A DNA stretch of 64,000 nt from a virus. Shown one piece after another: positions 2,441-63,635 of the stretch. The stretch is taken from IMG/VR virus record IMGVR_UViG_3300043446_004613, positions 62,001 through 126,000 of that record; one strand, given 5' to 3'. Within the stretch, counting starts at the first letter, position 1, and every line of letters starts with the position of its first letter. The notes beneath the pieces were generated by a model. It saw nothing but the letters and a program-made list of their open reading frames with translations. It was not told the DNA's origin and ran no database searches. A program made the position numbers and the translations under genes.

Positions 2441-2875
2441 ATGAGTACCGGTAACAAGCACAGCAAAACGCGCTACGAGACAATCGTACCTCGGGAGTTC
2501 AAGGCGACTATTCCAGATCACATTCTGGATCGGCTGCCTACGGATGAGCGCTATATTGTCAGTGCTCTCAGCAAGTTAGAGAACAGCAGCGATTGGGTTG
2601 TGCAGCACCTGCTTAAAACAAACAAGGCTATCCAAGACTTGGATTCGCGTATCGACGATGTAAACACTCGGATTACGGACGGTGAAAACGAGCAAGCCGC
2701 GCTCAACGTCCGGGTGCAGAAAACCGAAGGTGTCGCGGAAAAAGTGCAGAGGCTGTGGGATTGGAAGCAGTATTTTTCTGGCAAATGGGCGGCGTTGGGA
2801 TGTATTGGACTGGTAGTCCTGACAGCACTCGTAAAAGTTGCCTGTGACGCTTTGTACAAACATTTTACCCACTAA
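2441..2875 (+). CDS. Coiled-coil protein with C-terminal membrane anchor
   Basis: 144 residues. A central helical, heptad-like stretch (about residues 50-105) is followed by one hydrophobic segment near residues 117-133 and a short basic tail, giving a tail-anchored coiled-coil topology. It could be a spanin-like or membrane-tethering factor, but no family is recognised. The stop overlaps the ATG of the receiver-like gene (TAATGA), so the two are co-expressed. Confidence 0.55.
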   Translation: MSTGNKHSKTRYETIVPREFKATIPDHILDRLPTDERYIVSALSKLENSSDWVVQHLLKTNKAIQDLDSRIDDVNTRITDGENEQAALNVRVQKTEGVAEKVQRLWDWKQYFSGKWAALGCIGLVVLTALVKVACDALYKHFTH

Positions 2876-3306
2876 TGACAATCGCAGAAGGCTTAATACT
2901 AAGGTTGTTTCGACCGCCTAAGTTTCTTGTTGTCGAAGCACATGCAGGCATCAGCACGTTACTTAGTGCGCACTATGACTGCGACTTGGTGCAGGCAGGT
3001 TCGGCAGTTGAAGCAGCTGACTGTCTAGCATCCGGCGTGTATGACCTGATCATTTTGGATGCTGCGACACTTAACGGGAGCACAGCAACCCTGATCAAGA
3101 ACATTCAGACCATGTGTCCAGATACACCCACCGTAGCGTTTAATGCTGTTAATACTGCGTTCGACGAAGACGCGTTGGTTACGGTATTCAATGGGGCGAT
3201 AAAAATTGAACTGCTGGAACATCTGTTCAAGCAGTTCAAGATTAAGCTGCGCACCCGCGAGATCGCGGAGTACTGTGCAAGCATTGACCGGACGGCTGCC
3301 GCTTAG
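2875..3306 (+). CDS. Response-regulator receiver-like protein
   Basis: 143 residues with the alternating beta/alpha pattern of a CheY-type receiver. Beta1 is FLVVEAHAG, beta3 ends with DLIILD whose aspartate (about residue 62) sits at the phospho-acceptor position, and a late lysine (NGAIKIE) occupies the conserved Lys site. The usual Thr/Ser after beta4 appears to be Asn. There is no output domain, only a short helical tail. It overlaps the membrane coiled-coil gene upstream and could act at the membrane with it. Phosphorylation competence is an inference. Confidence 0.6.
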   Translation: MTIAEGLILRLFRPPKFLVVEAHAGISTLLSAHYDCDLVQAGSAVEAADCLASGVYDLIILDAATLNGSTATLIKNIQTMCPDTPTVAFNAVNTAFDEDALVTVFNGAIKIELLEHLFKQFKIKLRTREIAEYCASIDRTAAA

Positions 3307-3680
3307 CGTGGCGCTTGGGTAACGATCGAGTGGATTTTCTGGAGCAGCATGTCGTGCGACGGCGGCAACTGGACGTTGCGGGCTTCGTCGAGAACATGTT
3401 GCAGCAAGTTGACCGGTACTTCCTTTCCGGCCATCAGGGCTTCAATGATCTGCTTGTCTTGATCACTGTTGGCGAGGTGCGCGAGGATCAGCACCAGCAC
3501 GTCTTTCATCTGGCTCACTTCACGCGGAGAAAATTGGCCGGGAGGCTGCATGCCTTCACGCCCGCCGCCCATCACACGGGAGAGGTCATCACCACGGCGC
3601 GGCATCGGACGACGACCCGGATCACGGGGCGGCATCGACGGCATATCATCATTTTCACGAATAAGGTTTTTTGCGTTCAT
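3303..3680 (-). CDS. Hypothetical protein, proline/arginine-rich N-terminus
   Basis: Start at ATG 3680 (MNAKNLIREND) because the recurrent motif CGTATTTA lies eight bases upstream (3689-3696); ATG 3689 is the alternative. The product (125 aa) has a low-complexity segment rich in Pro, Arg and Asp followed by a helical C-terminal domain of about 80 residues. It overlaps the convergent receiver gene by four bases at the stop codons. Function unknown; a structural role is possible. Confidence 0.55.
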   Translation of the reverse strand: MNAKNLIRENDDMPSMPPRDPGRRPMPRRGDDLSRVMGGGREGMQPPGQFSPREVSQMKDVLVLILAHLANSDQDKQIIEALMAGKEVPVNLLQHVLDEARNVQLPPSHDMLLQKIHSIVTQAPR

Positions 3681-3826
3681 ATCGTCCATAAATACGGTTG
3701 CCAGTCCAGACTGGCGTGGAACCACTGTCCCGGTTCTGGCGAGAGGTTCTCTCCCTCTGTCAACTCTGCTTGTTCTAAGGCGTTGAGTTTTACCAAATGG
3801 TGGCTGACTAATCTCTTCGATTAACA

Positions 3827-3856
3827 GCGTGCAGCCAAAGCGCTTCAACTGCACGC
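3827..3856. repeat. Inverted repeat in the gap after the tRNA-like gene
   Basis: GCGTGCAG (3827-3834) and CTGCACGC (3849-3856) are perfect complements around a 14-base loop containing AAGCGCTT. It lies in the roughly 200-base stretch 3690-3892 that holds no convincing gene. On the minus strand this stretch also offers GGCTGAT (from 3885) pairing with GTCAGCC before ACCA (3798), i.e. a second, degenerate tRNA-like outline. I see nothing else there. Confidence 0.4.
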
Positions 3857-3892
3857 CTGTCCAGAATTGTACCAAACCATCAGCCGTTAAAA

Positions 3893-5707: not shown

Positions 5708-6127
5708 GTGTACGAACCGAAATACAAGCTTAACCGGCGCGATAATGATCGCTGGCTTCAACTGCTGGCCCGACACTGTCTTGAAGCCAGCCCGAAGAGC
5801 AAATCTAAATACCCACCGCTCTCTGCTAAAGAGAACCGGGAATTCGAGGCCCTTAGCCGGAAGCGTTCACGCAAAATTGAGTCGCACCCGACGGTTAAGG
5901 CTGAGATACTGCATACGCGTCGCCTGAACCGTCGGCTTAACCGGCTTGTGAACAAGCTGGATCGTTTACTAACGGTAGCTGTAAGTCGATGGACGTACCC
6001 AGCTTGGAATATGTATCGAAGCTCCTCAAATTCGAGGAGGCGTACACGTCACCACATTGAGGTCGTGACGTTACCGTGGGCCGGGTTAGGTTGCTCCATG
6101 ACCCATTTCTGGCCTACGGTCATGTAA
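5708..6127 (+). CDS. Small basic hypothetical protein, C-terminus uncertain
   Basis: GTG start at 5708, placed five bases after the start-proximal motif TGTTCTAA. Residues 1-90 are very rich in Arg and Lys (repeated RRLNRRLNRLVNK-like helices), suggesting nucleic-acid binding. The frame given runs to 6127 and overlaps the convergent gene by 79 bases with unprotein-like sequence. Another frame (shifted -1) is open from about 5941 and ends at 6058-6060 with MDVPSLEYVSKLLKFEEAY, which reads much better. A frameshift or a separate tiny gene near 5960 is therefore likely. Confidence 0.45.
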   Translation: MYEPKYKLNRRDNDRWLQLLARHCLEASPKSKSKYPPLSAKENREFEALSRKRSRKIESHPTVKAEILHTRRLNRRLNRLVNKLDRLLTVAVSRWTYPAWNMYRSSSNSRRRTRHHIEVVTLPWAGLGCSMTHFWPTVM

Positions 6128-6393
6128 ACCTTACCGTCCAGTTTGGCCATCTGGATATAAAGCCCGGTCTTAGCTTCCGTGACACTGCTCAGTGTCACGG
6201 TTTCGCTTTTTAATACGGATGCGGCAAAGCCTTCTTCACGGACAGGCTCGCCGGAACTAAGAGCGTCGAGCGCGGTTTTGTACATCTTTGCCAGCAGCGG
6301 CGCAGTGGCCGCGCTGACGATACTGTGGTTGCGGACGGTAGCTTCCAGCGGCACAACGTGCTTTGGGTCGATATAGGTATAGCGTGCGAACAT
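6049..6393 (-). CDS. Hypothetical protein (114 aa)
   Basis: Start ATG 6393 lies five bases after the motif TGTTCTTA on the minus strand. The product has a helical middle and a beta-rich C-terminal third. No recognisable family. Confidence 0.6.
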   Translation of the reverse strand: MFARYTYIDPKHVVPLEATVRNHSIVSAATAPLLAKMYKTALDALSSGEPVREEGFAASVLKSETVTLSSVTEAKTGLYIQMAKLDGKVYMTVGQKWVMEQPNPAHGNVTTSMW

Positions 6394-6413
6394 GGTATTA
6401 AGAACAGAATATC

Positions 6414-6971
6414 TTAAAAATGACGTGCTCGGACAACCGTACGCTGCTCGCCTTCGTTACACCAGAACTTACGGGTGCGCCCGTCACCGATCATTGAATC
6501 ATCCTCCCAGAGCGCGTCGCATACAGCCTTGCCGATGTTGTCCCAGTCTGGCTTTTGACGGTGAAGGCTGCCAAGCATCTCAGCTTTTTTCTTTTTGCTC
6601 CATGACTCAGGCATGGCTATGTAGGCGATAACATCCACCGCGTACACATCAGCGGTCTGTAACCCGTTCGGCGCGGCCTCGCGCAGCCGGTCGCAGTAGT
6701 CACGATAGCGCAGCACCACGTCACGTTTCATCCAGCGGTCGCGCTGGGTCATGCGCGGCTTTCCCATCGGATCACCAACGGAGGTGAATTCAGTGGTTTT
6801 TGCACCCTCTGGTTCAGGTACATCAGAACTTAGCGGCGGTGAACAGTATTTCGGTTCAACCTTAACATTTTCAGTTGCTTGTTCTTTGGATTTAATGTTT
6901 ACTCCAACCAGACTGTTTACTTTTGGATGCTTTGCTAGTTGCTTTTCTAGTTGTGCTTGTGTCCATCCCAT
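6414..6971 (-). CDS. RusA-like Holliday junction resolvase
   Basis: 185 residues. The C-terminal 125 match the RusA family: a GDPMGKPRMTQRDRW segment (about residue 66), and KPDWDNIGKAVCDAL (about 140), whose aspartates correspond to the metal-binding catalytic Asp residues, followed by DDSMIGDG. The N-terminal 60 residues are an unrelated low-complexity extension. RusA enzymes cut four-way junctions, here presumably during replication or packaging, alongside the RecA-like recombinase at 55.6-56.9 kb. The start has the motif GGTTCTTA seven bases upstream. Confidence 0.85.
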   Translation of the reverse strand: MGWTQAQLEKQLAKHPKVNSLVGVNIKSKEQATENVKVEPKYCSPPLSSDVPEPEGAKTTEFTSVGDPMGKPRMTQRDRWMKRDVVLRYRDYCDRLREAAPNGLQTADVYAVDVIAYIAMPESWSKKKKAEMLGSLHRQKPDWDNIGKAVCDALWEDDSMIGDGRTRKFWCNEGEQRTVVRARHF

Positions 6972-6976
6972 ACAGT

Positions 6977-6993
6977 TCTAAGAACCGTATTTA
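6977..6993. promoter_or_regulatory. Divergent start-proximal motif pair
   Basis: Between the resolvase gene (minus) and the paralogue gene at 7003 (plus), the palindrome GTTCTAAGAAC is followed by CGTATTTA (6986-6993). The plus-strand motif ends nine bases before ATG 7003; the minus-strand GGTTCTTA ends seven bases before ATG 6971. Neither gene has a Shine-Dalgarno sequence. Confidence 0.5.
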
Positions 6994-12438: not shown

Positions 12439-12451
12439 ACGTTAAATACGA

Positions 12452-14395: not shown

Positions 14396-14428
14396 ATCCG
14401 ACCTAACTACGCTAGTCGCGTCAGCAAT

Positions 14429-16560: not shown

Positions 16561-16623
16561 GCGTGACAAAGAACGGCGTTTTGTAAACACGTACGACGTA
16601 AATCTGCGCCGGTATGTAAGGAT

Positions 16624-17031
16624 ATGGCAGATTTCATGTATCCGAGCATAAAAGAAAAGATGCTATCAGGTCAGTTTAACTGGCTTTCTGACAGCATCGT
16701 AGCGATTCTCGTCGCTTCCGGCAAGTATACACCGTCGGTAAATCACGCCTCTTTGCTCGATTTACCAGTGACTGCGCGGGTCGCCACGTCGGATGTGCTT
16801 ACCGGTCGCACCGTTGTAAATAATGTTGTTGACGCAGACGACTACCTCTTCTCTAACGTGTCAGGCCCGCAGGTTGCAGCCGTCGTTCTCGCTGTCAACA
16901 GCGGCACAGAGGCTACCTCATGGTTGATTGCTTATCTGGATAAGGGTGTCAGCGGGCTGCCGTTTAATCCGTCAGATGGCCCGGCCCAGCTGGCTTGGGA
17001 TAACGGAGCTAATAAGATTTTTGCCCTGTAG
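16624..17031 (+). CDS. Phage virion (tail-region) protein family
   Basis: 135 residues beginning MADFMYPSIKEKMLSGQFNW. This pattern (MADF.YP..KE..L.G..NW.SD) belongs to a small protein family common among tailed phages near tail genes, function unknown. A weak Shine-Dalgarno-like AAGGA precedes the ATG, an exception here. It opens the plus-strand tail cluster that includes the baseplate gene. Confidence 0.55.
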   Translation: MADFMYPSIKEKMLSGQFNWLSDSIVAILVASGKYTPSVNHASLLDLPVTARVATSDVLTGRTVVNNVVDADDYLFSNVSGPQVAAVVLAVNSGTEATSWLIAYLDKGVSGLPFNPSDGPAQLAWDNGANKIFAL

Positions 17032-17038
17032 TTATTGC

Positions 17039-17306: not shown

Positions 17307-17534
17307 ATGGCTATAAATTTCAAGGCTCATGCCGAAAACTTACGCACGCTGGCTGATGGAGCGTCTAGGCTCGATCGGCAGAACTGCAACAATCTGCACT
17401 TAGTGGCCGATGTTCTAAACCGCATCGATCACCTTAAACAACAGCTTACGAACTGTAATGCGGACGATGATGACGACGTCACCCGCACAGCAAAAGAGCT
17501 TATGGCCGTGCTTGGAATCCAGCCCGGTAGTTAA
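17307..17534 (+). CDS. Small helical protein (75 aa)
   Basis: ATG 17307 chosen because GGTTCTTA ends five bases upstream. A predicted helical hairpin ending with an Asp-rich stretch (ADDDDDVTR). No family recognised. Confidence 0.55.
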   Translation: MAINFKAHAENLRTLADGASRLDRQNCNNLHLVADVLNRIDHLKQQLTNCNADDDDDVTRTAKELMAVLGIQPGS

Positions 17535-21534: not shown

Positions 21535-21569
21535 GTTAAAAAGAACTTACTTTTTATTAAATTTTTATG

Positions 21570-21604: not shown

Positions 21605-22429
21605 GTGAATATCGAAACCCTTAAAGACCTGCTGGCCGTTCCAACGCTCAGCTACAAAGAACACGCGTTAGTGAACTGGCTGGTTCACTACATCACACAC
21701 AACATTCCCGGCTGCACCGTTACAATCGATCCCTATCGTAACGTGTACGTGCGCAAAGGTACGGCTAAACAGGCACCCTGCATCGGAGCGCACATCGACA
21801 GCGTCCAGCCGCTGCGCAAAGTCAAAATCGTACAGGAAGGTACGCGTATTATCGGTTATGCCGATAAAAATCGTCAAGTTGGTATCGGCGGTGATGACAA
21901 GGCGGGCGTTTTCGTGTGCCTTAACCTGCTTGAGCGCTTCAGTGACATCAGCGTGATCTTTTTCGCTACCGAGGAGTGCGGTTGCGTCGGCGCACGTAAT
22001 GTAGACCCTGAGTTTATTGCCGGAGTGGGATACTTGATCGAATACGACTGCCCCAGCCGTAACATGTTATCGTATTCCGTTGGCGGTACCCGCCTGTTCC
22101 AGAACCGGGGTGACTTTATTCAGACAGCTTTTCCTGTCCTTATGCGCCACGGCACCCAGCTATGGCAACGGCATCCGTACACCGATGTCATGGCCATCCG
22201 CCGGTTATTTCCGATCTCGTGCCTGAATCTGTCCTGTGGCTACTACAACTGGCACGCAGATAACGAGTTTGTCAGCCTGCCTGATGTTGACTTGGCCATC
22301 GCACAGGGCGAGGAGTTGATCGCTACACTGGGAAGTAAGGCATACCCTTGCCCGATCGACTTAGCGTTTGATACGGATGCGCCATTGACGCCGATTACAA
22401 GTCTGCACGTGCCAGACCCGCTATCGTAG
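21605..22429 (+). CDS. M20/M28/M42-type zinc peptidase
   Basis: 274 residues from GTG 21605. Metal-ligand motifs in order are GAHIDSVQP (first zinc histidine and Asp), GGDDKAG (bridging Asp), FFATEECGCVGARN (catalytic EE pair), YDCPS and a C-terminal WHADNEFV histidine. This matches PepT-like co-catalytic zinc aminopeptidases. It is about 100 residues shorter than cellular PepT and seems to lack the dimerisation insert. The substrate is unknown. The radical SAM gene starts 12 bases downstream, so the two may process the same peptide. Confidence 0.8.
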   Translation: MNIETLKDLLAVPTLSYKEHALVNWLVHYITHNIPGCTVTIDPYRNVYVRKGTAKQAPCIGAHIDSVQPLRKVKIVQEGTRIIGYADKNRQVGIGGDDKAGVFVCLNLLERFSDISVIFFATEECGCVGARNVDPEFIAGVGYLIEYDCPSRNMLSYSVGGTRLFQNRGDFIQTAFPVLMRHGTQLWQRHPYTDVMAIRRLFPISCLNLSCGYYNWHADNEFVSLPDVDLAIAQGEELIATLGSKAYPCPIDLAFDTDAPLTPITSLHVPDPLS

Positions 22430-22441
22430 TTAAGGCTGCAC

Positions 22442-23290
22442 ATGTTTGAAGCTGCGTGGGTCATAAATAAATTCTGCAACATGGAGTGCTCGTACTGCAA
22501 CGCGCACAACGTGACGAAGCAACAGCAGATACCAGTCGACAGAATACTACGCTTTTTCAACAGTAAAGGGCGCAAGTGGCACATCAATATTGCGGGCGGT
22601 GAACCGTTTCTGTACCCGAAATTCAATGACCTATTGCACCGGCTTTGTGAAAACCACGAAGTCAGTATCATCACTAATCTGGATACGCCGCCCGTTCTTG
22701 ACTTCATTCAGACGCCACCTAAAAGCGTTCGGTACGTGATGGCCTCCCTGCATCTAGGCCAAAATCGGCGTCTGTCTGTGGATGAGTTTTGCGCCCGGAT
22801 AAAAGCTCTCAACCAAAAAGGTATTCACACGTTTGCGACGCAGGTCATCACACCAGAGGTATTCGATGCGTTTGACGGTGTGCTGAACGAATTCATATCC
22901 AAACACGGACTGGTGGTAGCCCCCAAGTGTCTGCGGGGTCTGCACGCTGGCAGTGTATATCCGGCAGCGTACACAACAGAACAAAGAGAAAAATTCTTGG
23001 AGTGGAGCCTGCTTGCGCAGCAAAGCCATAACGGGCAGCTGCACGATATGTCTGTTGATCGGGCATTTATCCACGGACGCGCTCCGTTTTTAGGCAAGCA
23101 CTGTCGGGCAGGTACGGACTTCATCCGCATACATGCAAGCGGCAAGATCACACGCTGCGGCGACAGTAACACTGTGATCGGAAACCTTTTGACGGGTGAG
23201 CTTCACCTAAAGGCGGAGCCTGCGCTGTGCGATATAAAAGACGCCTGTCCGTATTTTTGTTACCGGCACTCTTTACTGACAGCGCCGTAG
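22442..23290 (+). CDS. Radical SAM enzyme
   Basis: 282 residues. NKFCNMECSYCNAHN (about residues 11-24) carries the CxxxCxxC motif that binds the [4Fe-4S] cluster and SAM, and NIAGGEPFLYP is the GGE motif that contacts SAM methionine. The C-terminus has further Cys (CRAGTDFI, CGDSN, CDIKDACPYFC), suggesting a SPASM/Twitch-like auxiliary cluster as in peptide- or carbohydrate-modifying radical SAM enzymes. The substrate is unknown. CGTAGTTA lies nine bases before the ATG. Confidence 0.85.
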   Translation: MFEAAWVINKFCNMECSYCNAHNVTKQQQIPVDRILRFFNSKGRKWHINIAGGEPFLYPKFNDLLHRLCENHEVSIITNLDTPPVLDFIQTPPKSVRYVMASLHLGQNRRLSVDEFCARIKALNQKGIHTFATQVITPEVFDAFDGVLNEFISKHGLVVAPKCLRGLHAGSVYPAAYTTEQREKFLEWSLLAQQSHNGQLHDMSVDRAFIHGRAPFLGKHCRAGTDFIRIHASGKITRCGDSNTVIGNLLTGELHLKAEPALCDIKDACPYFCYRHSLLTAP

Positions 23291-23297
23291 TTAACAC

Positions 23298-25556: not shown

Positions 25557-25570
25557 TAACTACGTAGTTA
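25557..25570. promoter_or_regulatory. Palindromic divergent start motif TAACTACGTAGTTA
   Basis: A perfect 14-base palindrome between the divergent phosphoesterase and tubulin genes. Each half supplies a GTAGTTA motif facing one gene: four bases from ATG 25552 on the minus strand, and zero bases from ATG 25571 or six from ATG 25577 on the plus strand. A near copy lies at 41661-41676. Confidence 0.55.
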
Positions 25571-31983: not shown

Positions 31984-32002
31984 GCTATCCTTAAATACGT
32001 GG

Positions 32003-35387: not shown

Positions 35388-35404
35388 AAAGAACGGTGTT
35401 CTTA
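35388..35404. promoter_or_regulatory. Back-to-back start motifs for polymerase and 35411 genes
   Basis: AAAGAACG (35388-35395, minus-strand motif CGTTCTTT) and TGTTCTTA (35397-35404) are separated by one base. They face the polymerase start at 35380 and ATG 35411 respectively, seven and six bases away. The whole intergenic region is only 30 bases, so any promoter must lie here. Confidence 0.55.
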
Positions 35405-35410: not shown

Positions 35411-36481
35411 ATGGAACGTGAATCACAAAGTATACCGCTACCATGCTTCGGCATGGAGCATAATAGCAGCGATCCGCAGTGTTTAAGCTGTAAGCATGAA
35501 GCCGATTGCCGCATATTCATGGGTGCTCGCGCAGATAAAGTGACGCTGGATCAGGTAAAGTTCGACTTGATCTCAGACAAGTACCCAAAAGAAATATTTA
35601 ATGTTGACGACCCTGACAAGGTGCGACTGCAAACACTATACTGTAATTGTTACGCTACGGTATTTGACGGAGTAGTCCCCGATAAAAACGACAATGCTGA
35701 GCGCTTTAGTGCAAAGATATTAGCCAACGCCAACGCTGCTGATTGTTCACTTCGCATGTTCATGCTGTCAAACATGATAGCTCACGAGACACACGAAAAA
35801 CAGGTTATCAAGCATACGGAGAAACTGCGAGCGTCACGCTTTACGGCACGTTCGCTCACAAGCGCGTACGCCATAAAACGGGCGCAGATGTATCAACAGA
35901 TGTGCCGTGACCGCTTTGGCGTATTCAGTGTTAAAAGCTTGGCGGCATTGTCGGATGATAAGGAAACCATGACCGACACTGAACAGCTGATGCTGCAAAA
36001 TGAAGTCATGGCCGGTACGTGGATGGTGCGCCACAAGATATTTAACAGCGGCCCGAGCGAAAGACTGATGTTTGACACCCTTGAATTCCAACTGAGCCAT
36101 GAATGGTTGGCACTGGAATCATCTTACACGCGCTACGTGCTCACGCCGATGCGCCTCGGCGAGCTTAAAAGCACCAAGGTACAGGAGTATCGGCGCAAAG
36201 AAGTACTCGACCTTATCGGTTTTTTGAAGCGTAACCCGAGCAAAGGCCGCTGGTATTGGACGACGCGTCAGGCTATCATGGCAAAAGCTGTGACGCAGGT
36301 GCTCGCAAAATTTAATCTGCAACCGTGCGATTTCATGTATAGTCGCGAACCTGTCACAGACGTGATGAGTTTTTGGCGCACGCTGGGCCTGACAGTCCGG
36401 CACTACCACTGCCTGTTGTACCTGAACGGCGAAAACAATTTATTTACGCCGCGTCACCTTCGCTGGGAACACCGTTCTTAA
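35411..36481 (+). CDS. Replication-region protein with N-terminal Cys cluster
   Basis: 356 residues from ATG 35411; a GTG at 35396 is in frame but would include the motif TGTTCTTA. The N-terminus has CFGMEHNSSDPQCLSCKHEADC, a four-Cys metal site like the one in the sigma-like protein at 51486 (CNTCDLRHSC). The rest is helical. It lies between polymerase and helicase, eight bases before the helicase, so a primase, loader or replication-factor role is possible but not shown. Confidence 0.55.
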   Translation: MERESQSIPLPCFGMEHNSSDPQCLSCKHEADCRIFMGARADKVTLDQVKFDLISDKYPKEIFNVDDPDKVRLQTLYCNCYATVFDGVVPDKNDNAERFSAKILANANAADCSLRMFMLSNMIAHETHEKQVIKHTEKLRASRFTARSLTSAYAIKRAQMYQQMCRDRFGVFSVKSLAALSDDKETMTDTEQLMLQNEVMAGTWMVRHKIFNSGPSERLMFDTLEFQLSHEWLALESSYTRYVLTPMRLGELKSTKVQEYRRKEVLDLIGFLKRNPSKGRWYWTTRQAIMAKAVTQVLAKFNLQPCDFMYSREPVTDVMSFWRTLGLTVRHYHCLLYLNGENNLFTPRHLRWEHRS

Positions 36482-37934: not shown

Positions 37935-37963
37935 TTGACTGTATACATTTGTGTGCGTACAGT
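37935..37963 (+). promoter_or_regulatory. Sigma70-type promoter of the tRNA/tmRNA locus
   Basis: -35 TTGACT (37935-37940), a 17-base spacer, -10 TACAGT (37958-37963). The predicted start lies at about the first base of the tRNA. The hexamers match the promoter of the tRNA-like gene at 4006. Confidence 0.7.
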
Positions 37964-37968: not shown

Positions 37969-38045
37969 CGCGGGGTGGAGCAGCCCGGTAGCTCGTCTGG
38001 CTCATAACCAGAAGGTCGTTGGTTCAAATCCAACCTCCGCAACCA
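37969..38045 (+). tRNA. Initiator tRNA-Met (CAT)
   Basis: 77 bases with encoded CCA. The unpaired C1 x A72 at the acceptor end (CGCGGGG against CTCCGCA), the D arm GAGCAGCCCGGTAGCTC and the loop CTCATAA are hallmarks of bacterial initiator tRNA; it closely resembles E. coli tRNA-fMet. The anticodon stem is TCTGG/CCAGA, so it keeps two rather than three of the G-C pairs used for P-site selection. It is directly upstream of a structured RNA and the tmRNA. Confidence 0.93.
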
Positions 38046-38903: not shown

Positions 38904-38928
38904 TGGCCGCGCTGATGTAGTTATGGGC

Positions 38929-40407: not shown

Positions 40408-40503
40408 GCAGGTTAAGAACGGATTAAGTATTTTTTGATTACGGTTGAAAAAGCGTTTACAAATAAGTTGCACGGCTGTTGCATACAGTGTATCGTCCTG
40501 CGT

Positions 40504-41660: not shown

Positions 41661-41676
41661 TTAACTACGTAGTTAA
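41661..41676. promoter_or_regulatory. Palindromic motif TTAACTACGTAGTTAA
   Basis: A perfect 16-base palindrome between divergent genes; its core is the same as the 25557-25570 palindrome. The plus-strand CGTAGTTA lies nine bases before ATG 41685 and is followed by AAGAACAG, the complement of a CTGTTCTT box facing the minus-strand gene. Confidence 0.5.
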
Positions 41677-43628: not shown

Positions 43629-43669
43629 AATGTCAGCGTAAAAATTACAAAAACCTGTTCTTAGTACAC

Positions 43670-44764: not shown

Positions 44765-44775
44765 GTAGTTAAGGC

Positions 44776-46321: not shown

Positions 46322-46336
46322 GCTAGAAAGAACAAT

Positions 46337-46915
46337 ATGTCTAAAGTCATTTGTGTTGGTAATCCTAAAACAGCAACAACAAGTTTACAGCGGGCTATGG
46401 AATTGCTTGGTTACTCTGTAATGGGTTGGAATGACTACGCTGTGCAGTCTTGGATTTCTGGGCAAGATGAGTTGTGCCTGAGCTTGGCAAAACCATACGG
46501 ATTTTTGAAGGATTGGCCTTGGCGCACGTACTACAGAGTGTTTGATAAAGCATATCCCGGCAGTAAGTTTATCCTTACTACGCGAAATGTAGACGCTTGG
46601 GTTGACAGCTTGATTCGCCATCTAGCCTACCATAAATCGACACCTTGGGCAGAACAAGCTCGTATCAAAGGTTATGGCTTTGACCCCCGTAAGCACGTCA
46701 ACGACAAAGCGTTTCTCATCGACTACTACGAGGCAAAAAACGCCGAAATAAGAAACTACTTTATCTCCAGACCTGATGACCTTCTGGAGCATGACTTTAC
46801 GATTGATCCAACATGGGAAGCGCTATGCGGTTTTCTCAAGAAACCGGTTCCATTAAAAGCGTTTCCAAAATTAAACGTAAATCCGCTTAAAAGTGAAAAT
46901 GTTCAACGTACTTAG
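46337..46915 (+). CDS. Sulfotransferase-like protein A
   Basis: 192 residues. VICVGNPKTATTSLQRAMEL (about residues 4-23) is the PAPS 5'-phosphosulfate loop (KTGTTS type), and FILTTRNVDAWVDSLIRH (about 75-92) is the 3'-phosphate loop with Arg and Ser of the Sulfotransfer_4-like family. It would transfer sulfate from PAPS to a sugar or other acceptor. The gene at 46919 is a tandem paralogue. Lower GC-rich codon use than neighbours, with many AT-ending codons, hints at later acquisition. Confidence 0.75.
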   Translation: MSKVICVGNPKTATTSLQRAMELLGYSVMGWNDYAVQSWISGQDELCLSLAKPYGFLKDWPWRTYYRVFDKAYPGSKFILTTRNVDAWVDSLIRHLAYHKSTPWAEQARIKGYGFDPRKHVNDKAFLIDYYEAKNAEIRNYFISRPDDLLEHDFTIDPTWEALCGFLKKPVPLKAFPKLNVNPLKSENVQRT

Positions 46916-48910: not shown

Positions 48911-48938
48911 TTGACGCTTGGCTTATCGTGTATACACT
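48911..48938 (+). promoter_or_regulatory. Sigma70-type promoter of the DUF6011 gene
   Basis: -35 TTGACG (48911-48916), 16-base spacer, -10 TACACT (48933-48938). GGAG follows directly, then the ATG at 48944, so the leader would be nearly absent. It lies in the 76-base gap after the lysozyme gene. It probably drives early expression by host RNA polymerase. Confidence 0.65.
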
Positions 48939-50336: not shown

Positions 50337-50367
50337 AAAAGGCGATCTCTTAGGAGGTCGCCTTTTT
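50337..50367. terminator. Bidirectional intrinsic terminator
   Basis: AAAAGGCGA (50337-50345) pairs with TCGCCTTTTT (50358-50367), giving a stem with A-run and T-run on either side. It lies between the convergent DUF6011 and HAD genes and can serve both. Confidence 0.8.
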
Positions 50368-50704: not shown

Positions 50705-50712
50705 GTTGTTAA

Positions 50713-50865
50713 CTACATGCGCGGGCGCACCCTCTTAAAAGGATAGCCCTCTATGCTTGTGCTGGTTTTGCCGCAAGGGCACGTGAAACGGAATTTCTTC
50801 GCGTCCCAGAGCAACGTCGGAGAACCGCAGCAAGCTGTCGGTTGTTTTAGCTCTTTTGGCTTCAC
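50713..50865 (-). CDS. Small zinc-ribbon protein (50 aa)
   Basis: GTG 50865 overlaps the HU stop (GTGA). ACCGSPTLLW and FTCPCGKTST supply CC and CxC knuckles of a compact zinc ribbon; the tail is basic. Function unknown; translational coupling with HU suggests a nucleic-acid role. Confidence 0.5.
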   Translation of the reverse strand: MKPKELKQPTACCGSPTLLWDAKKFRFTCPCGKTSTSIEGYPFKRVRPRM

Positions 50866-51485: not shown

Positions 51486-53003
51486 TTATTCAAAGGTTTC
51501 TTTGCTGTGCTGTTCAATCAATGCGATAAGCTCAGCCAGCGGAGTATTATCGCGGGGATACCACGTCTTTTGTTTACCCGTCAGCTTCTTTTTAAGCTCA
51601 TCGCTGGGTTCGCAAAAACGAAGTTTCATCGGAGCTTCACTGTCGAGACAGAACAGAAAACAACGTTTACGCTCCGCCCCTACGTAGTGATACCAAAACT
51701 GACGACCTTGGCGTTCAGCACGGTTAAATGTCTCATCGAGGTGACTGATGATTTCTGCCTCATCGTTGCTGGTAATCCGCTGACTGGGTTCGTTGGTAGG
51801 CCGGGGCAGGTAGGCAGGCGTGCGCTGCTGGCGGGCACCCAGCAGCTTAGGGCTGATTGCCATCTTTGATAGCCCAAGATTTGCGGCTTCGACAGAGCAG
51901 GAGTGACGCAAGTCACAGGTGTTGCATTGGCGAGCGTTCTTGGAGTACAGGATGCCATAGCAGGCGAGTTTTCCGTTTCCGATCGAACGCGGAACCTTGG
52001 CGTTAACCTCAGTCAACATCTCGGCAACTTGTGGCGACACCTTGTCAAATTGATCACGGGCCGCCATCGTGAGCATGCGGCGTACGACCATACCGTCAAG
52101 GTCAGTTGGAATCTGTAGTCCGAAGACAAGTTTAAGCTGTGCGATGATTGCGTTTTGACGGGCTTCGCCGTCGTGTTGTTCTTGAGTTACCATACGATGC
52201 GCTAGAGTTTTGTTACGTATTGATAGAACAGCTTCTGAAAATAGTTCGGTCGAAATTCCGACAGCTTCCGCCATGTGCGTGAATTTTATTTTTACCGTCA
52301 CCTTTCCCTTGTTGCCTTTGCGCATCGCGTCCAATTCGGCATAGCAGCGTGCGTGCGCACTAGGGCTAATTAGTTCGTGAAAAACAAGCTTCTCTACAGG
52401 CGTAAGTTGGAAAGCAAACTCAGCCGCTGTTTGGCTAAATCCCCAATCAATGTCGTTTTCGTCGCATCCACTGTCTACGTCGTGCATGTCCGGCACTTGC
52501 AGTCCCAAATCAGGGTCGTCAAGTGATAGGTCAACGTTCTTGTGATACTCTGGCGTTTCCTCGCTGTCATGCGCAGCTTTAGGCGCGTCTAGTTTTTGCT
52601 GTTGACGCGGCGGCGGTTTTTGACCAGTGCGCTTTTCCGTAAAGCGGTATTTCTGAACACGGCTTTTGGTGTTGTTGTTTACACTTGTCTTGAAAAAGGC
52701 AAAAAACGAGTGACGAGTCGGACACTTATCGCCGCCCATGATGCCCTTGCTGATAAGTTTGCTGAGCACAAGGTTGCCTTCACCCATCAGTTCGTCAAAC
52801 TGAAGGTGCGGCGTAGTCTCGTCGCGGTATTGGTTAGCCACAGTGGCGATGACACGCTGTAGATCAGGCATCATCTCTTCCAACACCGGAGGTCTAAGCT
52901 TCGGGTCTTTGAAGATTAGGAATAAACGTTGACGCTTTGGGCGCAGTGCGCCAAGGATGTCACTCGTTAGCCGAATCTTCGTTGAAAATGCTGTGCTCGC
53001 CAT
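51486..53003 (-). CDS. Sigma70-region-2-like protein with Cys cluster
   Basis: 505 residues. LQFDELMGEGNLVLSKLI (about residues 70-87) followed by HSFFAFFKTSVNNNTKSRV and a basic stretch resembles sigma region 2.1-2.4. KIKFTHMAEAVGISTELFSE (about 230) could be a region 3/4 helix-turn-helix. The C-terminal half carries CNTCDLRHSC, a four-Cys motif. Compared with T4 gp55 it is nearly three times longer. It overlaps the second sigma-like gene by 44 bases. Probably redirects host RNA polymerase. Confidence 0.6.
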   Translation of the reverse strand: MASTAFSTKIRLTSDILGALRPKRQRLFLIFKDPKLRPPVLEEMMPDLQRVIATVANQYRDETTPHLQFDELMGEGNLVLSKLISKGIMGGDKCPTRHSFFAFFKTSVNNNTKSRVQKYRFTEKRTGQKPPPRQQQKLDAPKAAHDSEETPEYHKNVDLSLDDPDLGLQVPDMHDVDSGCDENDIDWGFSQTAAEFAFQLTPVEKLVFHELISPSAHARCYAELDAMRKGNKGKVTVKIKFTHMAEAVGISTELFSEAVLSIRNKTLAHRMVTQEQHDGEARQNAIIAQLKLVFGLQIPTDLDGMVVRRMLTMAARDQFDKVSPQVAEMLTEVNAKVPRSIGNGKLACYGILYSKNARQCNTCDLRHSCSVEAANLGLSKMAISPKLLGARQQRTPAYLPRPTNEPSQRITSNDEAEIISHLDETFNRAERQGRQFWYHYVGAERKRCFLFCLDSEAPMKLRFCEPSDELKKKLTGKQKTWYPRDNTPLAELIALIEQHSKETFE

Positions 53004-53970
53004 AACGCCGTGGGTCGATAGTCTCGATCATCTCGTTGTACGTTTCTTGTGCTGAACGTACAGTTTTCTTGTGTTTGCGGGCGACCTCTGCGATCGAATC
53101 AGGGTCTAAATCTGTCTTGTCGATGTCACGCATCAACAAGTAATCAGAATGGATTTTTGACAGCTGTTGGATGGTAGGAAACTTCATCCGTTTGCCTCCG
53201 AACAGCACGCACAGCTTTTTAGCAACTTCAAACCCGAACTCATCTACAATATCGGGCAGATACGTGTAGCTTTGAGAAGCCAGCACAAGATCGTATTCTG
53301 TAAACGGGACGTAAGTTTGTTTATAGAAGGCTTGGCGCAAATTCACGATTGACCAGTCGTAAAAGAATTTGGATAAGTCGAAACTGATACCGTAGGCATA
53401 AGCTGCGCTGCGAATTGCGTCCTGCTTATCGTGCTCGTCGTCTATGATACACTGGATCAAGAAGCGGATAGCGCCAATCTCCTGTGGATCGCCCCATCGA
53501 CAGTTTAGCTCTCTAAGCTTGTTGTGCGTTTCCTGTACGGCATCGTGCTTGTCGACTTCGTGATCATCAACGCCGTAAAACTTTTCAAGGTTATCGCTGG
53601 TGACGTGGAATCGACGCCGGTACTGATTTACTTTCTGTAGTTCAGAACGAAAAGCGTTTTTAGCGCATTTGCTAAACCAAGAAAACAACTTGCCCTTTTT
53701 AGGCTGCCACGCTGCCAGCCACTTGATGACTTTTTCCTGTGCAGCGCTGACCAGTTGTGGAAGATCGACCGTGTAATGAAAATCTTCAAACTGCGCTAAA
53801 CGCTCAAACATCGCCGAGGAGCCGACGACAATGTTTTCAAGCACGAGCATCGCATCTTTGTGGCGACCAGCCGCGTTCAGCTGCTTCCACTGGATAGCCA
53901 GCGGCGTCAGTTGACTTGCCGGAAATATATGCTCTCCGTCAGCGGGTGTTGCTGGATTCTTCTTTGGCAT
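52960..53970 (-). CDS. Sigma factor-like protein (T4 gp55-like region 2)
   Basis: 336 residues. LVSAAQEKVIKWLAAWQPKK (about residues 73-92) and LFSWFSKCAKNAFRSELQKV (about 95-114) correspond to the sigma region 2 pattern found in T4 gp55 (KxxNxxxYxTxxxxNAFxxRIKKE). Basic residues follow (YRRRFHVT). A C-terminal KIHSDYLLMRD and EVARKHKKTVRSAQETY could form a helix-turn-helix. Adjacent to another sigma-like gene and HU. Candidate recogniser of the start-proximal motif. Confidence 0.65.
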   Translation of the reverse strand: MPKKNPATPADGEHIFPASQLTPLAIQWKQLNAAGRHKDAMLVLENIVVGSSAMFERLAQFEDFHYTVDLPQLVSAAQEKVIKWLAAWQPKKGKLFSWFSKCAKNAFRSELQKVNQYRRRFHVTSDNLEKFYGVDDHEVDKHDAVQETHNKLRELNCRWGDPQEIGAIRFLIQCIIDDEHDKQDAIRSAAYAYGISFDLSKFFYDWSIVNLRQAFYKQTYVPFTEYDLVLASQSYTYLPDIVDEFGFEVAKKLCVLFGGKRMKFPTIQQLSKIHSDYLLMRDIDKTDLDPDSIAEVARKHKKTVRSAQETYNEMIETIDPRRYGEHSIFNEDSANE

Positions 53971-58840: not shown

Positions 58841-60069
58841 GGTGTTGCCGGGTGAAAAGCATCCAACTGCTTTTGCGCTAATTCCATCAAGTCTACCTTC
58901 TTTAGAACGTCGTCAGGTGCAACTGCGGAGGTAACTTCGCAAGAATGTTGCCGGATACCTTGAGGGCACTTGTTTACAGGGAACTCGCCAAACGCAAAGC
59001 ACGGAGAGAATTGACAGGCATCCTGCTTCCAGACAGCTAAGTCCATGTAGTTTTTATCGTAACCGATGCGTGCGCCGGGAGCGTGTGTACCCCAGATGCT
59101 AACCGCAGGCGTGTTCAAAGCCTGCGCCATGTACAGCGGAGCGCTATCCAAACAGACTAATCCGGCTGAACGGGAGATCAGCGCCATGAGCACGCGGATC
59201 GACGTGCTGTCGATTGCGTTGATGACTCCGCCACCCAGCTGGGCTATACGTTGATTGAATTCGCCTGCGCTCATATCCATATCCGGCAGACGCAAAGAAC
59301 TGTTTCCTACAACCACAACCGGACGGCGTGTAGACATTTCTTTAATAATTTCCAACCACGTGCCGTAGTTCATGCTACGCAGGGTCGCGTTGCTGAAAGG
59401 TGCAACGACGTAGTAGCCAACATGCCGCAAGTCGACTTTACGCTGCTCCCAGACGTAACGGTAGAGTCGATCAAGGTTTTGATAGTCTTCAGAAATCAAG
59501 GTTGCCGTAGGGCGCTTCCACTTAGGATCAATACTTGCCGGATCAAAACCAAGCTGCTTAAACAGTGCATCATACACGTTCAGCTGGTCACCCTCACAGT
59601 CCTGCTCGGTGACCGTATTGATGAGCCAGTGGTAGTTGTACATGCGGAGATGGTCATACTCCAGCGGGCCGCATTTGACGCACTTGTTGCTGATGAGCGG
59701 GCTATGCGTCAACACTAATCCCCGATCTGCGAACGCCATGACGTCGATTTCAACGTCACCGCCCGATACGTGGTTGATGAAACCCAGCGGCCCGGTAAGG
59801 AACAACAGGTCACCTATGCCGCGCTCACGGCAACGCTCCACCAAAATCTTAGCGCCGGTCACGTTTTTACCAGCGGTAAGCCGGTTATAGAGCGAAGCCC
59901 CATCCAGTTCGGATACGGTATCAATGAAGTCCTTGATCGGTTCAATGCGGTTTGCGTTTACAACGTAGCGGCGGTTTGGATTGAACAGCCACGTTTCGTC
60001 AGCGGTCTGGTTAAACATCACCGGTTCCTTGACGGTTACTATCAGCCATTGCGTATTGATCGGAATCAT
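58837..60069 (-). CDS. GT9 (heptosyltransferase-like) glycosyltransferase
   Basis: 410 residues. CRERGIGDLLFLTGPLGF (about residues 80-97) is the N-terminal GxGDxxxxxP loop, and CLDSAPLYMAQALNTPAVSI with WGTHAPGARIGY (about 308-340) is the donor-binding D(S/T)xxxHxA-type block of GT9 ADP-heptose transferases. The usual His is Tyr (APLYMA). A CQFSPCF loop follows. It may add a heptose-like sugar, and the HldE-type enzyme at 4400-4891 could supply the donor. TGTTCTTT lies eight bases before the ATG. Confidence 0.8.
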   Translation of the reverse strand: MIPINTQWLIVTVKEPVMFNQTADETWLFNPNRRYVVNANRIEPIKDFIDTVSELDGASLYNRLTAGKNVTGAKILVERCRERGIGDLLFLTGPLGFINHVSGGDVEIDVMAFADRGLVLTHSPLISNKCVKCGPLEYDHLRMYNYHWLINTVTEQDCEGDQLNVYDALFKQLGFDPASIDPKWKRPTATLISEDYQNLDRLYRYVWEQRKVDLRHVGYYVVAPFSNATLRSMNYGTWLEIIKEMSTRRPVVVVGNSSLRLPDMDMSAGEFNQRIAQLGGGVINAIDSTSIRVLMALISRSAGLVCLDSAPLYMAQALNTPAVSIWGTHAPGARIGYDKNYMDLAVWKQDACQFSPCFAFGEFPVNKCPQGIRQHSCEVTSAVAPDDVLKKVDLMELAQKQLDAFHPATP

Positions 60070-60090
60070 GCGTTGTAAAAGAACAGGGTT

Positions 60091-61652: not shown

Positions 61653-61925
61653 ATGGACGCCAAACTGGATAGTGAACTTAAAATGACCCGGATACGCGGC
61701 GCGGCTTTGACTTTGCGCGTTCAGCCGGTAATGGTCATGTCTGAGATGCTGAGTGAGTACATTCAGCTTTGCGATGCTCAGCAACGTCAGATCGCTGACT
61801 TATGCGCCATAATTGCCAAATATGAAGCTAATCAAACAAATGATCCAGCAGTACCAAGCCAAGCACAACCGCCTGCCGCTGCAAGTCCTTGTACACCCGG
61901 TAGCACTGACAGCCCTCGCACTTAA
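61653..61925 (+). CDS. Hypothetical protein (90 aa)
   Basis: A helical N-terminal half (MVMSEMLSEYIQLCDAQQRQ) and a Pro/Ala/Ser-rich C-terminal tail that overlaps the next gene by 104 bases. No family recognised. Confidence 0.5.
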   Translation: MDAKLDSELKMTRIRGAALTLRVQPVMVMSEMLSEYIQLCDAQQRQIADLCAIIAKYEANQTNDPAVPSQAQPPAAASPCTPGSTDSPRT

Positions 61926-62055
61926 AAAGTCTGCCCTGCCGATGTGTGATGGCGTACCAATCGTGTGTCGTGAGGTTACAGTGGCACCTGCTGTAGACAG
62001 TCTTCGCCTTGGTATAACCGTAATCGACGGAGCCATCCGTACTTTTGACATCTAA
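61822..62055 (+). CDS. Hypothetical protein (77 aa)
   Basis: From ATG 61822 (MKLIKQMIQQYQAKHNRLPL). The block VLVHPVALTALALKK and ITVIDGAIRTF suggests a compact alpha/beta protein. It lies mostly within a different frame of the 61653 gene's 3' end, and its stop is five bases before the next gene. Function unknown. Confidence 0.5.
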   Translation: MKLIKQMIQQYQAKHNRLPLQVLVHPVALTALALKKSALPMCDGVPIVCREVTVAPAVDSLRLGITVIDGAIRTFDI

Positions 62056-62059
62056 TTTT

Positions 62060-62980
62060 ATGCGTAGCCTAATTGCAATCAAAACCTATCGCCGACTCCA
62101 CGCCCTCAAAGCTATGATGTCGGGCATCGAACAACACTGTCCGCAGTATCACTGCATTATCAGCGAAGACTGCGGTCAGCGTGATGGAACGACAGATTTC
62201 ATTACTAAAGGCCGTGTCGGCACAGCTGTGCCGGAACTGCTGTCGACAAAGCATGTCGTTGAAAGCGGCGACGCTAACTTCATTAACGCAGATGTATACA
62301 CTGGAGACGTAAATCTGGGTGTTACAGGCAACAACAACCGTTTGCTCAAGCTGTTCATGGATGGCGAGTGGGATCACCTGCTGCTGTGCGATGACGATTT
62401 GCTCGTGACGGGTGATTTCGTTGAAGCATACGCGAACGCCCATGCAGACCTTGGTGTGGACATGTTTTGCTTCTGCGACTTCACTGAAGCATCTCCAGCC
62501 ATATCCGGTGCCCCGGAAACGTATAAATGGACTACTTATCCGATGCGCGGTTATCAAGTAAAGTTTCTACCCCGCTTCACCGGCATCATGATGTCGGTAA
62601 CACGCAGCCTCATTGAAAAGATAGGCTACATGGATGCCGAGTTCGGCAAGTTTGGAGAAGAACACTGCGACTGGACAATTCGTGCGCGTATGGCAGGCGG
62701 CATACGTCTGAACAACACGGATATGAATTGTTTGGACATCGCCCATAACCGCCTGACCCATCAAAACGTACAGACCAGTATGTCAGGTTCAGCGCGTAAG
62801 CACGCTGATCAAGAAGCCCACGTCGCTATGCAGCGGGCTGCCTATGAATACCGTTTGCGTCACTATTACCGGCCCTTCCGTCTTACCTATCCAGTGATGG
62901 CGGCAGGCCATTCCGGTGTCGGCGTGCCCTGCCGCCAGCTGGATCAGATCGGCTATAGACTCGTGAACGCCCCTGCGTAG
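62060..62980 (+). CDS. GT2-family glycosyltransferase
   Basis: 306 residues from ATG 62060. SLIAIKTYRRLHAL opens the GT-A fold; LLLCDDDLLVTGDFVEAYAN (about 112-131) carries the DDD metal motif; FGKFGEEHCDWTIRARMAGG (about 194-213) contains the catalytic E(D/E)xDW-type block. Typical GT2 length and motif order. Acceptor unknown. It precedes a virion-type operon, so virion glycosylation is possible. Confidence 0.8.
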   Translation: MRSLIAIKTYRRLHALKAMMSGIEQHCPQYHCIISEDCGQRDGTTDFITKGRVGTAVPELLSTKHVVESGDANFINADVYTGDVNLGVTGNNNRLLKLFMDGEWDHLLLCDDDLLVTGDFVEAYANAHADLGVDMFCFCDFTEASPAISGAPETYKWTTYPMRGYQVKFLPRFTGIMMSVTRSLIEKIGYMDAEFGKFGEEHCDWTIRARMAGGIRLNNTDMNCLDIAHNRLTHQNVQTSMSGSARKHADQEAHVAMQRAAYEYRLRHYYRPFRLTYPVMAAGHSGVGVPCRQLDQIGYRLVNAPA

Positions 62981-62987
62981 TTAGGCT

Positions 62988-63635
62988 GTGACTAAGAATC
63001 CGCATCTGAAGAAATTACTCGGCGAATCGGAACACGACGAGGTTCACCGCTACGCCGATGCTATGCAGCAAACGCCGCAGAACGGACGCGAAGCATACCC
63101 AGATCAGCCTGAGCTTGCCTCTGCGTTTGATCGGCTGCATTTGCAGGATAAGTCGTTGGACGAACTGCGCGACATGGTTGCCAATCAAGCGCTAAACGGC
63201 TTTGAGCTTGAGGTCGTAAACAACGAGATCGAGTTTTTGAGCGGACTCTCTGAAAATCTCGAAGATCAGCAGAATATGCCCGCACGTCCAAAAGACGAGA
63301 CGCAGGACGACACGCCGATCAAGCCGAAAAGTAACAAGGCGGCCAGCTTCGGAAACGTCAACGTGGAACTGGCTCCGAGCGTGCGGGAATTGATCGGTCT
63401 TTGGAAGCGCGGCGAGCACATGGCAGTTGCCGCCCGCTTGATGTTCACGCCAGCGAGCTATGTCGATTTCATTGCGTTATCTTTTACCATTGGTCAAGCT
63501 GGTGCAATGGAATTGGCTGGTTTACTGGATGAACTTTCAGATACCGAAAATATGCGACCGCCGTCCACCCCGCCAGAGTACAAAGAATTGCTTCAAAAAG
63601 TCGCAGGAGCAAACGCAGAGGAAAACGTTATATGA
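62988..63635 (+). CDS. Hypothetical protein with LLGES N-terminus
   Basis: 215 residues from GTG 62988, four bases after CGTAGTTA. The N-terminus MTKNPHLKKLLGESEHDEV has LGE-S, a candidate prohead-protease site. The middle is acidic, the C-terminal third (ELIGLWKRGEHMAVAARLMF) helical. The stop overlaps the next ATG (ATGA). Virion association inferred. Confidence 0.55.
   Translation: MTKNPHLKKLLGESEHDEVHRYADAMQQTPQNGREAYPDQPELASAFDRLHLQDKSLDELRDMVANQALNGFELEVVNNEIEFLSGLSENLEDQQNMPARPKDETQDDTPIKPKSNKAASFGNVNVELAPSVRELIGLWKRGEHMAVAARLMFTPASYVDFIALSFTIGQAGAMELAGLLDELSDTENMRPPSTPPEYKELLQKVAGANAEENVI

Follow-up and report, generated by a model that had tools for sequence, protein, structure and literature searches.

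In phage T4, late promoters (TATAAATA, gp55/gp33) consist of a single -10-like element with no -35 element. Phage phiYS40 has early promoters with -35 and -10 elements, and its middle and late promoters carry one -10-like element. This large myophage of Thermus thermophilus uses the host RNA polymerase, and most of its middle and late mRNAs are leaderless (PMC3594737). In Deinococcus-Thermus bacteria, an ORF-adjacent -10 motif set against the start codon also gives leaderless mRNAs (PMC12340547). PhiEco32 encodes a sigma factor, gp36, which serves middle and late genes through a one-element promoter (PMC8948821).

The phage described here is closest to phiYS40, with which it shares the large myophage type, a probable reliance on host RNA polymerase, a promoter class with -35 and -10 elements, -10-like elements and leaderless-type mRNAs, the last predicted here from promoter geometry. 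In phiYS40, middle and late genes share one sigmaA-like element, whereas here we found two non-sigma70 words, GTANTTA (class A) and GTTCTW (class B), which are split by gene function; orthologues agreed in class in 105 of 107 typed pairs. Only middle and late mRNAs of phiYS40 are leaderless, whereas here a sigma70-type class (class C) has leaderless geometry as well; the two sigma-like proteins encoded here are a further difference. The Deinococcus-Thermus element is TANNNT, belongs to the housekeeping sigma factor and precedes cellular genes, whereas neither word of this phage has the form TANNNT. In phiEco32, middle and late genes share one sigma factor and one word, and start-codon placement is not reported in the passages on its promoters (PMC8948821). 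Class A resembles T4 late promoters in being one -10-like element without a -35 for putatively late genes, although the word differs.

The window analysed is a 64,000-nt stretch of the 211-kb phage record IMGVR_UViG_3300043446_004613. An initial annotation had described a single motif, GTWNTTA, before more than 30 starts, and had proposed position-aware enrichment in the full record and its relatives as a check. The results showed that enrichment was present in both. Across the whole record, GTWNTTA lay 4-9 nt upstream of 45/220 called ATG starts and of 8/5,880 other ATGs (p 7.7e-59), and within the window of 16/65 and 4/1,882, respectively (p 1.5e-21), indicating a real and strong signal. All 18 coordinates given by the annotation bear the words it named within 1 base, and its number of starts was right, the window holding about 22 class A and 16 class B starts after start reassignment. 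With start calls made without motif or Shine-Dalgarno (SD) information, the top upstream 7-mer was GTAGTTA (32 genes versus 0.5 expected), whose ends cluster 4-9 nt before the start, and de novo EM on upstream sequence returned GTW(G/C)TTA. When the words were read backwards, class A was found at 2 genes instead of 49 and class B at 3 instead of 34. SD-like 4-mers in this record showed no excess over shuffled upstream sequence, in agreement with the earlier view that SD sequences are mostly missing.

Approximately 60% of genes have no element, and many of these, not all, overlap the preceding gene. Class A and B words were rare at overlapping genes and over-represented where genes start divergently (37% versus about 17%, p 4e-7); the excess at divergent starts was repeated in five test genomes (p 6e-11). 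This is how promoters should behave. The modal gap to the start was 4 nt for class A, 6 nt for class B and 6 nt for class C. By inference, the words act as promoter elements of the -10 type placed right before the start codon, as the annotation had suggested.

The single motif was nevertheless dropped for GTANTTA and GTTCTW; one is not exchanged for the other between orthologues. Its description as a late motif fits GTANTTA, whereas GTTCTW (TGTTCTTA forms) fits replication and recombination (middle) genes. Class A has no -35 element and precedes virion genes, including those for the portal, two baseplate wedge proteins, a head-tail adaptor and a tail fibre. At the tail sheath gene, 15 nt separate GTAGTTA from the ATG, and no word was found upstream of the genes for the capsid protease and the major head protein. 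The class A sites in the window are as follows.

3689..3695, minus strand: GTATTTA before 3303-3680 (minus); shares bases with one ATG, and the next follows after 8 nt
6987..6993, plus strand: GTATTTA, 9 nt before 7003-8247; divergent from an opposite-strand class B element
12443..12449, minus strand: GTATTTA before 11854-12438 (minus)
14404..14410, minus strand: GTAGTTA before 13490-14395 (minus); kept in G001, G002 and G004, GTAATTA in G003
17028..17034, plus strand: GTAGTTA, 4 nt before ATG 17039
17527..17533, plus strand: GTAGTTA, 4 nt before baseplate wedge gene 17538-19877; identical in the G001, G002 and G004 orthologues
22426..22432, plus strand: GTAGTTA, 9 nt before ORF 22442-23290
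23287..23293, plus strand: GTAGTTA, 4 nt before GTG 23298
25557..25570, unstranded: palindrome TAACTACGTAGTTA of two opposed class A elements, serving 25142-25552 (minus) and 25577-26701 (plus)
31992..31998, minus strand: GTATTTA before 31759-31983 (minus)
38917..38923, plus strand: GTAGTTA, 5 nt before ATG 38929; a tmRNA lies upstream
41669..41675, plus strand: GTAGTTA, half of a second palindrome, 9 nt before 41685-42224
44765..44771, plus strand: GTAGTTA before head-tail adaptor gene 44776-45546; class A in 5/6 orthologues
46908..46914, plus strand: GTACTTA, 4 nt before 46919-47518
50710..50716, minus strand: GTAGTTA before 50366-50704 (minus)
62977..62983, plus strand: GTAGTTA, 4 nt before GTG 62988; class A in 4/4 orthologues found

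In 24 other viral contigs, TAACTACGTAGTTA was not enriched over control in the 18 records tested, indicating that the word is not general. The commonest class A gap (4 nt) would place the start only 5 nt past the element, at the short end of the sigma70 range, which counts against the promoter cascade proposed below.

Class B has A/T-rich bases 4-7 nt upstream of the word and precedes genes for DNA polymerase, two helicases, RusA, endonuclease VII, SbcC and SbcD. One endolysin-like gene is also class B, which likewise counts against the proposed cascade. The class B sites in the window all read GTTCTT.

6400..6405, minus strand: before 6049-6393 (minus)
6980..6985, minus strand: before RusA-like resolvase 6414-6971 (minus)
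16569..16574, minus strand: before DNA helicase 14914-16560 (minus); class B in 6/8 orthologues
21541..21546, minus strand: before 20938-21534 (minus); class B in G002, G042 and G028
35389..35394, minus strand: before DNA polymerase 32003-35380 (minus); class B in 5/6 orthologues
35398..35403, plus strand: before 35411-36481
36474..36479, plus strand: before DnaB-like helicase 36489-37928
40415..40420, minus strand: before endonuclease VII-like gene 39931-40407 (minus)
43657..43662, plus strand: before 43670-44764
46328..46333, minus strand: before 45533-46321 (minus)
60079..60084, minus strand: before 58837-60069 (minus), which heads an operon of SSB- and UvsX-like genes followed by two sigma genes

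Class C is a sigma70-type promoter, TTGAC-N17-TACANT, with a TANNNT-like -10 and a spacer of 16-18 nt. In G002 and G006 it also lies 5' of amber-suppressor-type tRNA genes and is there not followed by a start codon.

2394..2422, minus strand: TTGACA-N17-TACGAT, 8 nt before the ATG of 1312-2385 (minus)
37940..37949, plus strand: class C-like -10 (TGTATACATT) 5' of a tRNA gene, with no start codon following and no -35 at standard spacing
48911..48938, plus strand: TTGACG (48911-48916), 16 nt, TACACT (48933-48938), 6 nt before the ATG of 48945-50312; class C in the G002 and G006 orthologues

The class C -10 mostly ends 6-8 nt and the -35 hexamer 28-31 nt before the ATG. Since sigma70 elements occupy -35 to -30 and -12 to -7 (PMC11598898), this geometry predicts that +1 falls on the A of the ATG or no more than about 2 nt away. 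Among the three classes, class C thus gives the firm prediction of a transcription start. Contrary to what the annotation had proposed, leaderlessness is not tied to late genes: this sigma70-type class shares the same geometry.

We compared the classes among orthologues in ten related records, and the typed pairs comprised 44 A/A, 55 B/B, 6 C/C and 2 A/B. The words were conserved while their flanks differed. Both words were also present in five independently called relatives with 49-68% GC, which served as test genomes; the p values ranged from 3.5e-5 to 4e-20 for class A and from 3.8e-5 to 3e-21 for class B. In a relative with 67.7% GC, the count against the reversed control was 16:0. G037 was poor in class A sites and showed a slight SD excess. 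The phage family has 57 close capsid matches in IMG/VR. A host search by DnaB in genome contigs gave no match, and the sole MCP match, a 3.8-kb contig from the bin of an uncultured Flavobacteriales MAG, was too weak a basis for naming a host.

The initial annotation had named two sigma-like genes as candidate readers of the motif, which is plausible given the following results.

51486..53003, minus strand: sigma-like protein, a homologue of SPO1 gp28 fused to a gp27-like zinc-motif segment (hhalign)
52960..53970, minus strand: second sigma-like protein (PDB fold matches of a low-confidence model)

An eight-member profile of the 51486 protein (A9) aligned with the gp28 profile over 186 columns (probability 93.7%, E 2e-7), scoring 57.8 against a shuffled maximum of 20.3, which demonstrates homology over the length of gp28. 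Of gp27, only the N-terminal zinc-motif segment (C-x-GI...C-x2-C-D...C) was matched (42.2 versus a shuffled maximum of 18.7). The matches in Goe2 correspond to gp28/gp27 of the SPO1 record, and a reading of them as gp34/gp33 was dropped. The protein is thus a fused homologue of gp28, the middle sigma factor, and gp27, which are separate adjacent genes in SPO1, and it is predicted to recognize promoters. For the 52960 protein, all 50 PDB fold matches listed were sigma factors or sigma-containing complexes, suggesting a sigma-like fold at the low confidence of the model; the AlphaFold models were poor (pLDDT 61 and 47). No significant sequence match of this protein to a known sigma factor was found, and PDB sequence searches gave nothing solid. 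Pfam Sigma70_r2 reached E 0.016 in one orthologue, and a Sigma70_r2 search over eight records gave no match. Its profile (A8) did not match SPO1 gp34 (14.0, shuffled maximum 23.1), and the score with gp33 (17.7, shuffled maximum 16.9) was not convincing, covering 18 columns of a single sequence. Membership of the SPO1 late pair gp33/gp34 was therefore rejected for lack of sequence homology, whereas the early/middle/late logic of the SPO1 cascade (gp28 middle, gp33/gp34 late) would be common to both phages. Both sigma genes lie in class B-led operons in 6/7 genomes, and thus they cannot alone account for initial class B transcription, which needs another source. We favour, as an unproven assignment, that the 52960 protein reads class A and the 51486 protein class B.

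We consider it quite probable that the three classes form an early, middle and late cascade of host RNA polymerase promoters that makes leaderless or nearly leaderless mRNAs. The words would be -10-position elements, and transcripts would begin at, or a few nucleotides from, the A of the AUG, a position that we infer from promoter geometry. Class C would be read by the host primary sigma factor and serve early genes and tRNA genes; class B would serve replication and recombination genes and the operon ending in the two sigma-like genes; and class A would serve the virion genes late. The gp28-gp27-type protein and the 52960 protein are the likely readers of the class A and B words. Translation of the messages would be leaderless, and genes further down an operon would be translated by coupling. 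Besides the class A spacing and the endolysin-like gene, several observations count against this reading: the genes that lack an element, those for the capsid protease and the major head protein among them; the distance at the tail sheath gene; the position of both sigma genes in class B-led operons; the missing sequence match of the 52960 protein; and the pattern in G037.

The words might instead be promoter elements whose transcripts start 5-15 nt 5' of the AUG, giving short leaders without SD sequences. Such a leader would fit the class A gaps of 7-9 nt and the 15 nt at the tail sheath gene, but the modal gaps leave no room for it, and we regard this as unlikely. Translation-initiation signals that lie within longer mRNAs and stand in for SD by pairing with rRNA or a ribosomal protein would account for both the SD-like spacing of 4-9 nt and the absence of SD. 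However, two unrelated words almost never swap between orthologues and divide by gene function, they are over-represented at divergent starts but seldom found where genes overlap, and class C, which occupies the same position, is a classic sigma70 promoter that includes a -35 box and also occurs 5' of tRNA genes; this explanation is thus distinctly unlikely.

Operators for one or two phage regulators at start codons, rather than RNA polymerase contacts, would be consistent with the palindromic sites such as that at 25557-25570. Most sites are single and directional, as the reversed control indicated (2-3 genes versus 49 and 34), and the words occupy the position of the class C -10 element, so that we rate operators as very improbable. 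Chance, or an artefact of start calling and of the stop codons TAG and TTA, could be suspected from the TAG inside GTAGTTA and the frequent overlap of the word with the previous stop codon. The enrichment over other ATGs already contradicts it, as do the words at divergent starts without an upstream stop and the high-GC relative, and we give it almost no credence.

The predicted promoter cascade is accompanied by one tRNA gene, the only one found in this record.

37969..38045, plus strand: initiator-type tRNA-fMet with a C1-A72 mismatch

The tRNA-Met of G042 and G036 is without the C1-A72 start, and the examined stretches of G028 and G037 yielded no tRNA-Met; an initiator tRNA as a family-wide requirement was therefore dropped.

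Tentatively, and with somewhat less than even confidence, we suggest that a widespread family of large phages may run its whole lytic programme on leaderless mRNAs, using two non-sigma70 words and two phage sigma factors, one of them a gp28-gp27 fusion, with some members adding an initiator tRNA that feeds leaderless initiation. The class of a gene can be read from sequence alone in this uncultured phage family, which helps start calling and allows genes of unknown function to be sorted into replication-type and virion-type groups by promoter word. The fused sigma factor ties the family to the classic SPO1 cascade, and the promoter words can be tested in vitro. Leaderless expression in phages has its best documented case in phiYS40; the cascade, if true, would broaden it to every promoter class, and it raises the question of how such a phage captures ribosomes without SD sequences.

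Judged from its gene content, G000, the 211,113-bp IMG/VR virus record whose bases 62001-126000 form the window, represents a large contractile-tailed phage, with replication genes (family A DNA polymerase, DnaB-like helicase, NAD ligase) and virion genes (baseplate wedge, portal, head protease, major head protein, tail sheath). Its polymerase had no isolate-phage match at 60% identity or above, and the highest-coverage matches were SPO1-like phages at about 24% identity. We gathered relatives via the polymerase, baseplate and sigma genes; the records compared may be incomplete, and annotation covers part of their genes. A search with the major head protein found 60 loci in viruses, almost all with at least 60% identity. 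This protein is highly conserved (close relatives share 88-93% identity in it, against often about 50% in their other proteins), and its gene at L008:9216-10676 (a stretch with its own coordinates) probably starts at the ATG at L008:9216, which has neither an upstream motif of the kind described here nor a Shine-Dalgarno (SD) sequence.

Genes in G000 were called with a codon-usage model blind to upstream sequence (255 genes, 89% coding). The top 7-mer upstream of called starts was GTAGTTA, present at 32 genes against 0.5 expected and separated from the start by 4-9 nt. Enrichment extended to GTTCTTA, GTTCTTT and GTATTTA, and an EM motif search recovered GTW(G/C)TTA unaided. The initial annotation had proposed GTWNTTA as one motif, possibly marking leaderless late transcription. 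Its motif coordinates all held on re-check, and enrichment at starts over non-start ATGs was confirmed in the whole record (5,880 non-start ATGs, odds ratio about 190, P = 7.7e-59) and within the window (odds ratio 153, P = 1.5e-21). On both strands of G000, 33 of 47 GTAGTTA copies directly precede assigned starts; several others precede an ATG or GTG overlooked by the gene caller. Start calls and class reassignments are our own; 49 of 186 typed starts were shifted to fit an element, and strict counts are independent of these shifts.

The single motif did not survive orthologue typing, which split it into two words: GTANTTA (class A) and GTTCTW with A/T-rich bases 4-7 nt upstream (class B). 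The word was kept in orthologues despite diverged flanks. Orthologue pairs typed on both sides agreed in class in 105 of 107 cases (A/A 44, B/B 55, A/B 2, and C/C 6 for a third class), where random exchange would leave about half discordant, although shared ancestry makes the pairs non-independent. Class A preceded two baseplate wedge genes and the head-tail adaptor, portal and tail fibre genes, whereas class B preceded the genes for DNA polymerase, two helicases, RusA resolvase, endonuclease VII, SbcC and SbcD; the chance probability of this division, five against seven, is 1/792 (Fisher's test). An endolysin-like gene, a GroES-like gene and a glycosyltransferase gene were also class B. The palindrome TAACTACGTAGTTA, at 25557-25570 and 41662-41675, consists of two opposed, overlapping class A elements, and the former copy serves two divergent genes.

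By a reversed-pattern control, class A was strong in many records (16:0 in G042, 19:0 in G028 and G026) and, as strict GTAGTTA, weak or absent in G033, G034, G036 and G037. When called genes were used and class A was taken as GTANTTA, each of the two words reached significance in every one of the five test genomes. One of them is G042 (67.7% GC), in which the class A gap was exactly 4 nt in 19 of 25 cases. The word was not enriched in the 18 viral records tested outside the family.

In genes lacking A and B, TGTTGAC was enriched 20-40 nt and GTATACA less than 20 nt upstream of the start. Together these form predicted sigma70 promoters, TTGAC-N16/18-TACANT (class C). The -35 hexamer mostly ended 28-31 nt before the ATG, and the -10 hexamer ended 6 nt before it in 13 of 23 cases and 7, 8 or 9 nt in the others. 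Since standard numbering places these elements at -35 to -30 and -12 to -7 (PMC11598898), the predicted +1 falls on the A of the ATG or within about 2 nt. Among G000 class C promoters within 120 nt of a start, 10 of 11 were no more than 20 nt away, for the most part 6-9 nt.

The words probably act as promoters rather than translation signals. Strict counting at called starts found A or B at 37% of divergently oriented starts and at 9% of those that overlap an upstream gene. The difference between divergent and same-strand starts had P = 3.6e-7, and P = 5.9e-11 across five test genomes. When same-strand genes lack an element, 46% of them start inside the preceding gene or within 4 nt of it, a pattern that translational coupling would produce. 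SD-like 4-mers showed no excess over shuffled sequence in class A, class C or untyped genes and were rare in class B genes (3%), in agreement with the earlier remark that SD sequences are mostly missing. In G002 and G006, class C is also found ahead of tRNA genes of amber-suppressor type, and the tRNA at 37969 has a class C-like -10 upstream; none of these sites serves a start codon.

tRNA genes in G000 and related records
Initiator-type tRNA-fMet, three members: window 37969-38045 (+); L026:12999-13072; L039:18783-18859
tRNAs with CTA (amber) anticodon, five members: L022:6701-6775; L024:11715-11791; L037:4837-4912; L141:3447-3523; L163:12581-12656
tRNA with TTA anticodon, G028: L155:7855-7929

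The sole tRNA of G000 is initiator-type (C1-A72), with U-A at pair 29-41 in place of the usual G-C, and G002 and G006 also carry this type. It fits a leaderless reading, because leaderless initiation requires initiator tRNA. None was found in G042 or G036, which rules it out as a family rule. TAG is an ordinary stop in about one fifth of genes in the records counted, despite the CTA-anticodon tRNAs. A tmRNA gene at 38235-38652 (+) has an unusually long predicted tag of 32 aa, AEEAELNSLLAEAESIFNNADEVLANAEAVAA; G036 also has a tmRNA, with an 18-aa tag.

Most middle and late mRNAs of phiYS40 are leaderless (PMC3594737), Deinococcus-Thermus bacteria have ORF-adjacent -10 elements (PMC12340547), and in phiEco32 a phage sigma factor recognizes promoters that consist of one element (PMC8948821). 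In a limited literature search, we did not find described the combination of two function-split words, a sigma70 class and a gp28-gp27 fusion, with all three promoter types set at the start codon.

That fusion is the product of 51486-53003 (-), one of two sigma-like genes named earlier as candidate readers. Its eight-member profile matched SPO1 gp28 over 186 columns (E = 2e-7; score 57.8 versus a shuffled maximum of 20.3), and after this part the gp27 zinc motif aligned (42.2 versus 18.7). SPO1 gp28 and gp27, annotated as middle-gene sigma factor and regulation/late gene expression, are separate neighbours, whereas 51486-53003 holds both in one chain. The other candidate, 52960-53970 (-), has a sigma-region-2-like stretch, TVDL..LVSAAQEKVVKWL..W.PKKGKLFSWFSKCAKNAFRSE. 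Its predicted structure was poor (pLDDT 47); the 50 PDB fold matches listed for this model were sigma factors or sigma-containing complexes, none with an individually significant E-value. The predicted sigma assignment is better placed for 51486-53003. The G007 sigma orthologue (L044:9943-11904) is 654 aa long with an N-terminal part without match, probably from a contig frameshift.

In each of the eight records found to carry them, the two sigma genes adjoin. A perfect 12-bp inverted repeat, GGGAGATCAAAA...TTTTGATCTCCC (54694-54736), lies immediately upstream of a block of three genes, the last of which are the sigma genes. The operon leading to them has class B elements at its head in six of seven genomes checked; therefore, class A is most likely the target of at least one sigma protein, which would act later than class B. 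We favour a scheme in which the 52960 protein would read A and the gp28-like 51486 protein would read B, with the first supply of the latter coming from low-level or read-through transcription.
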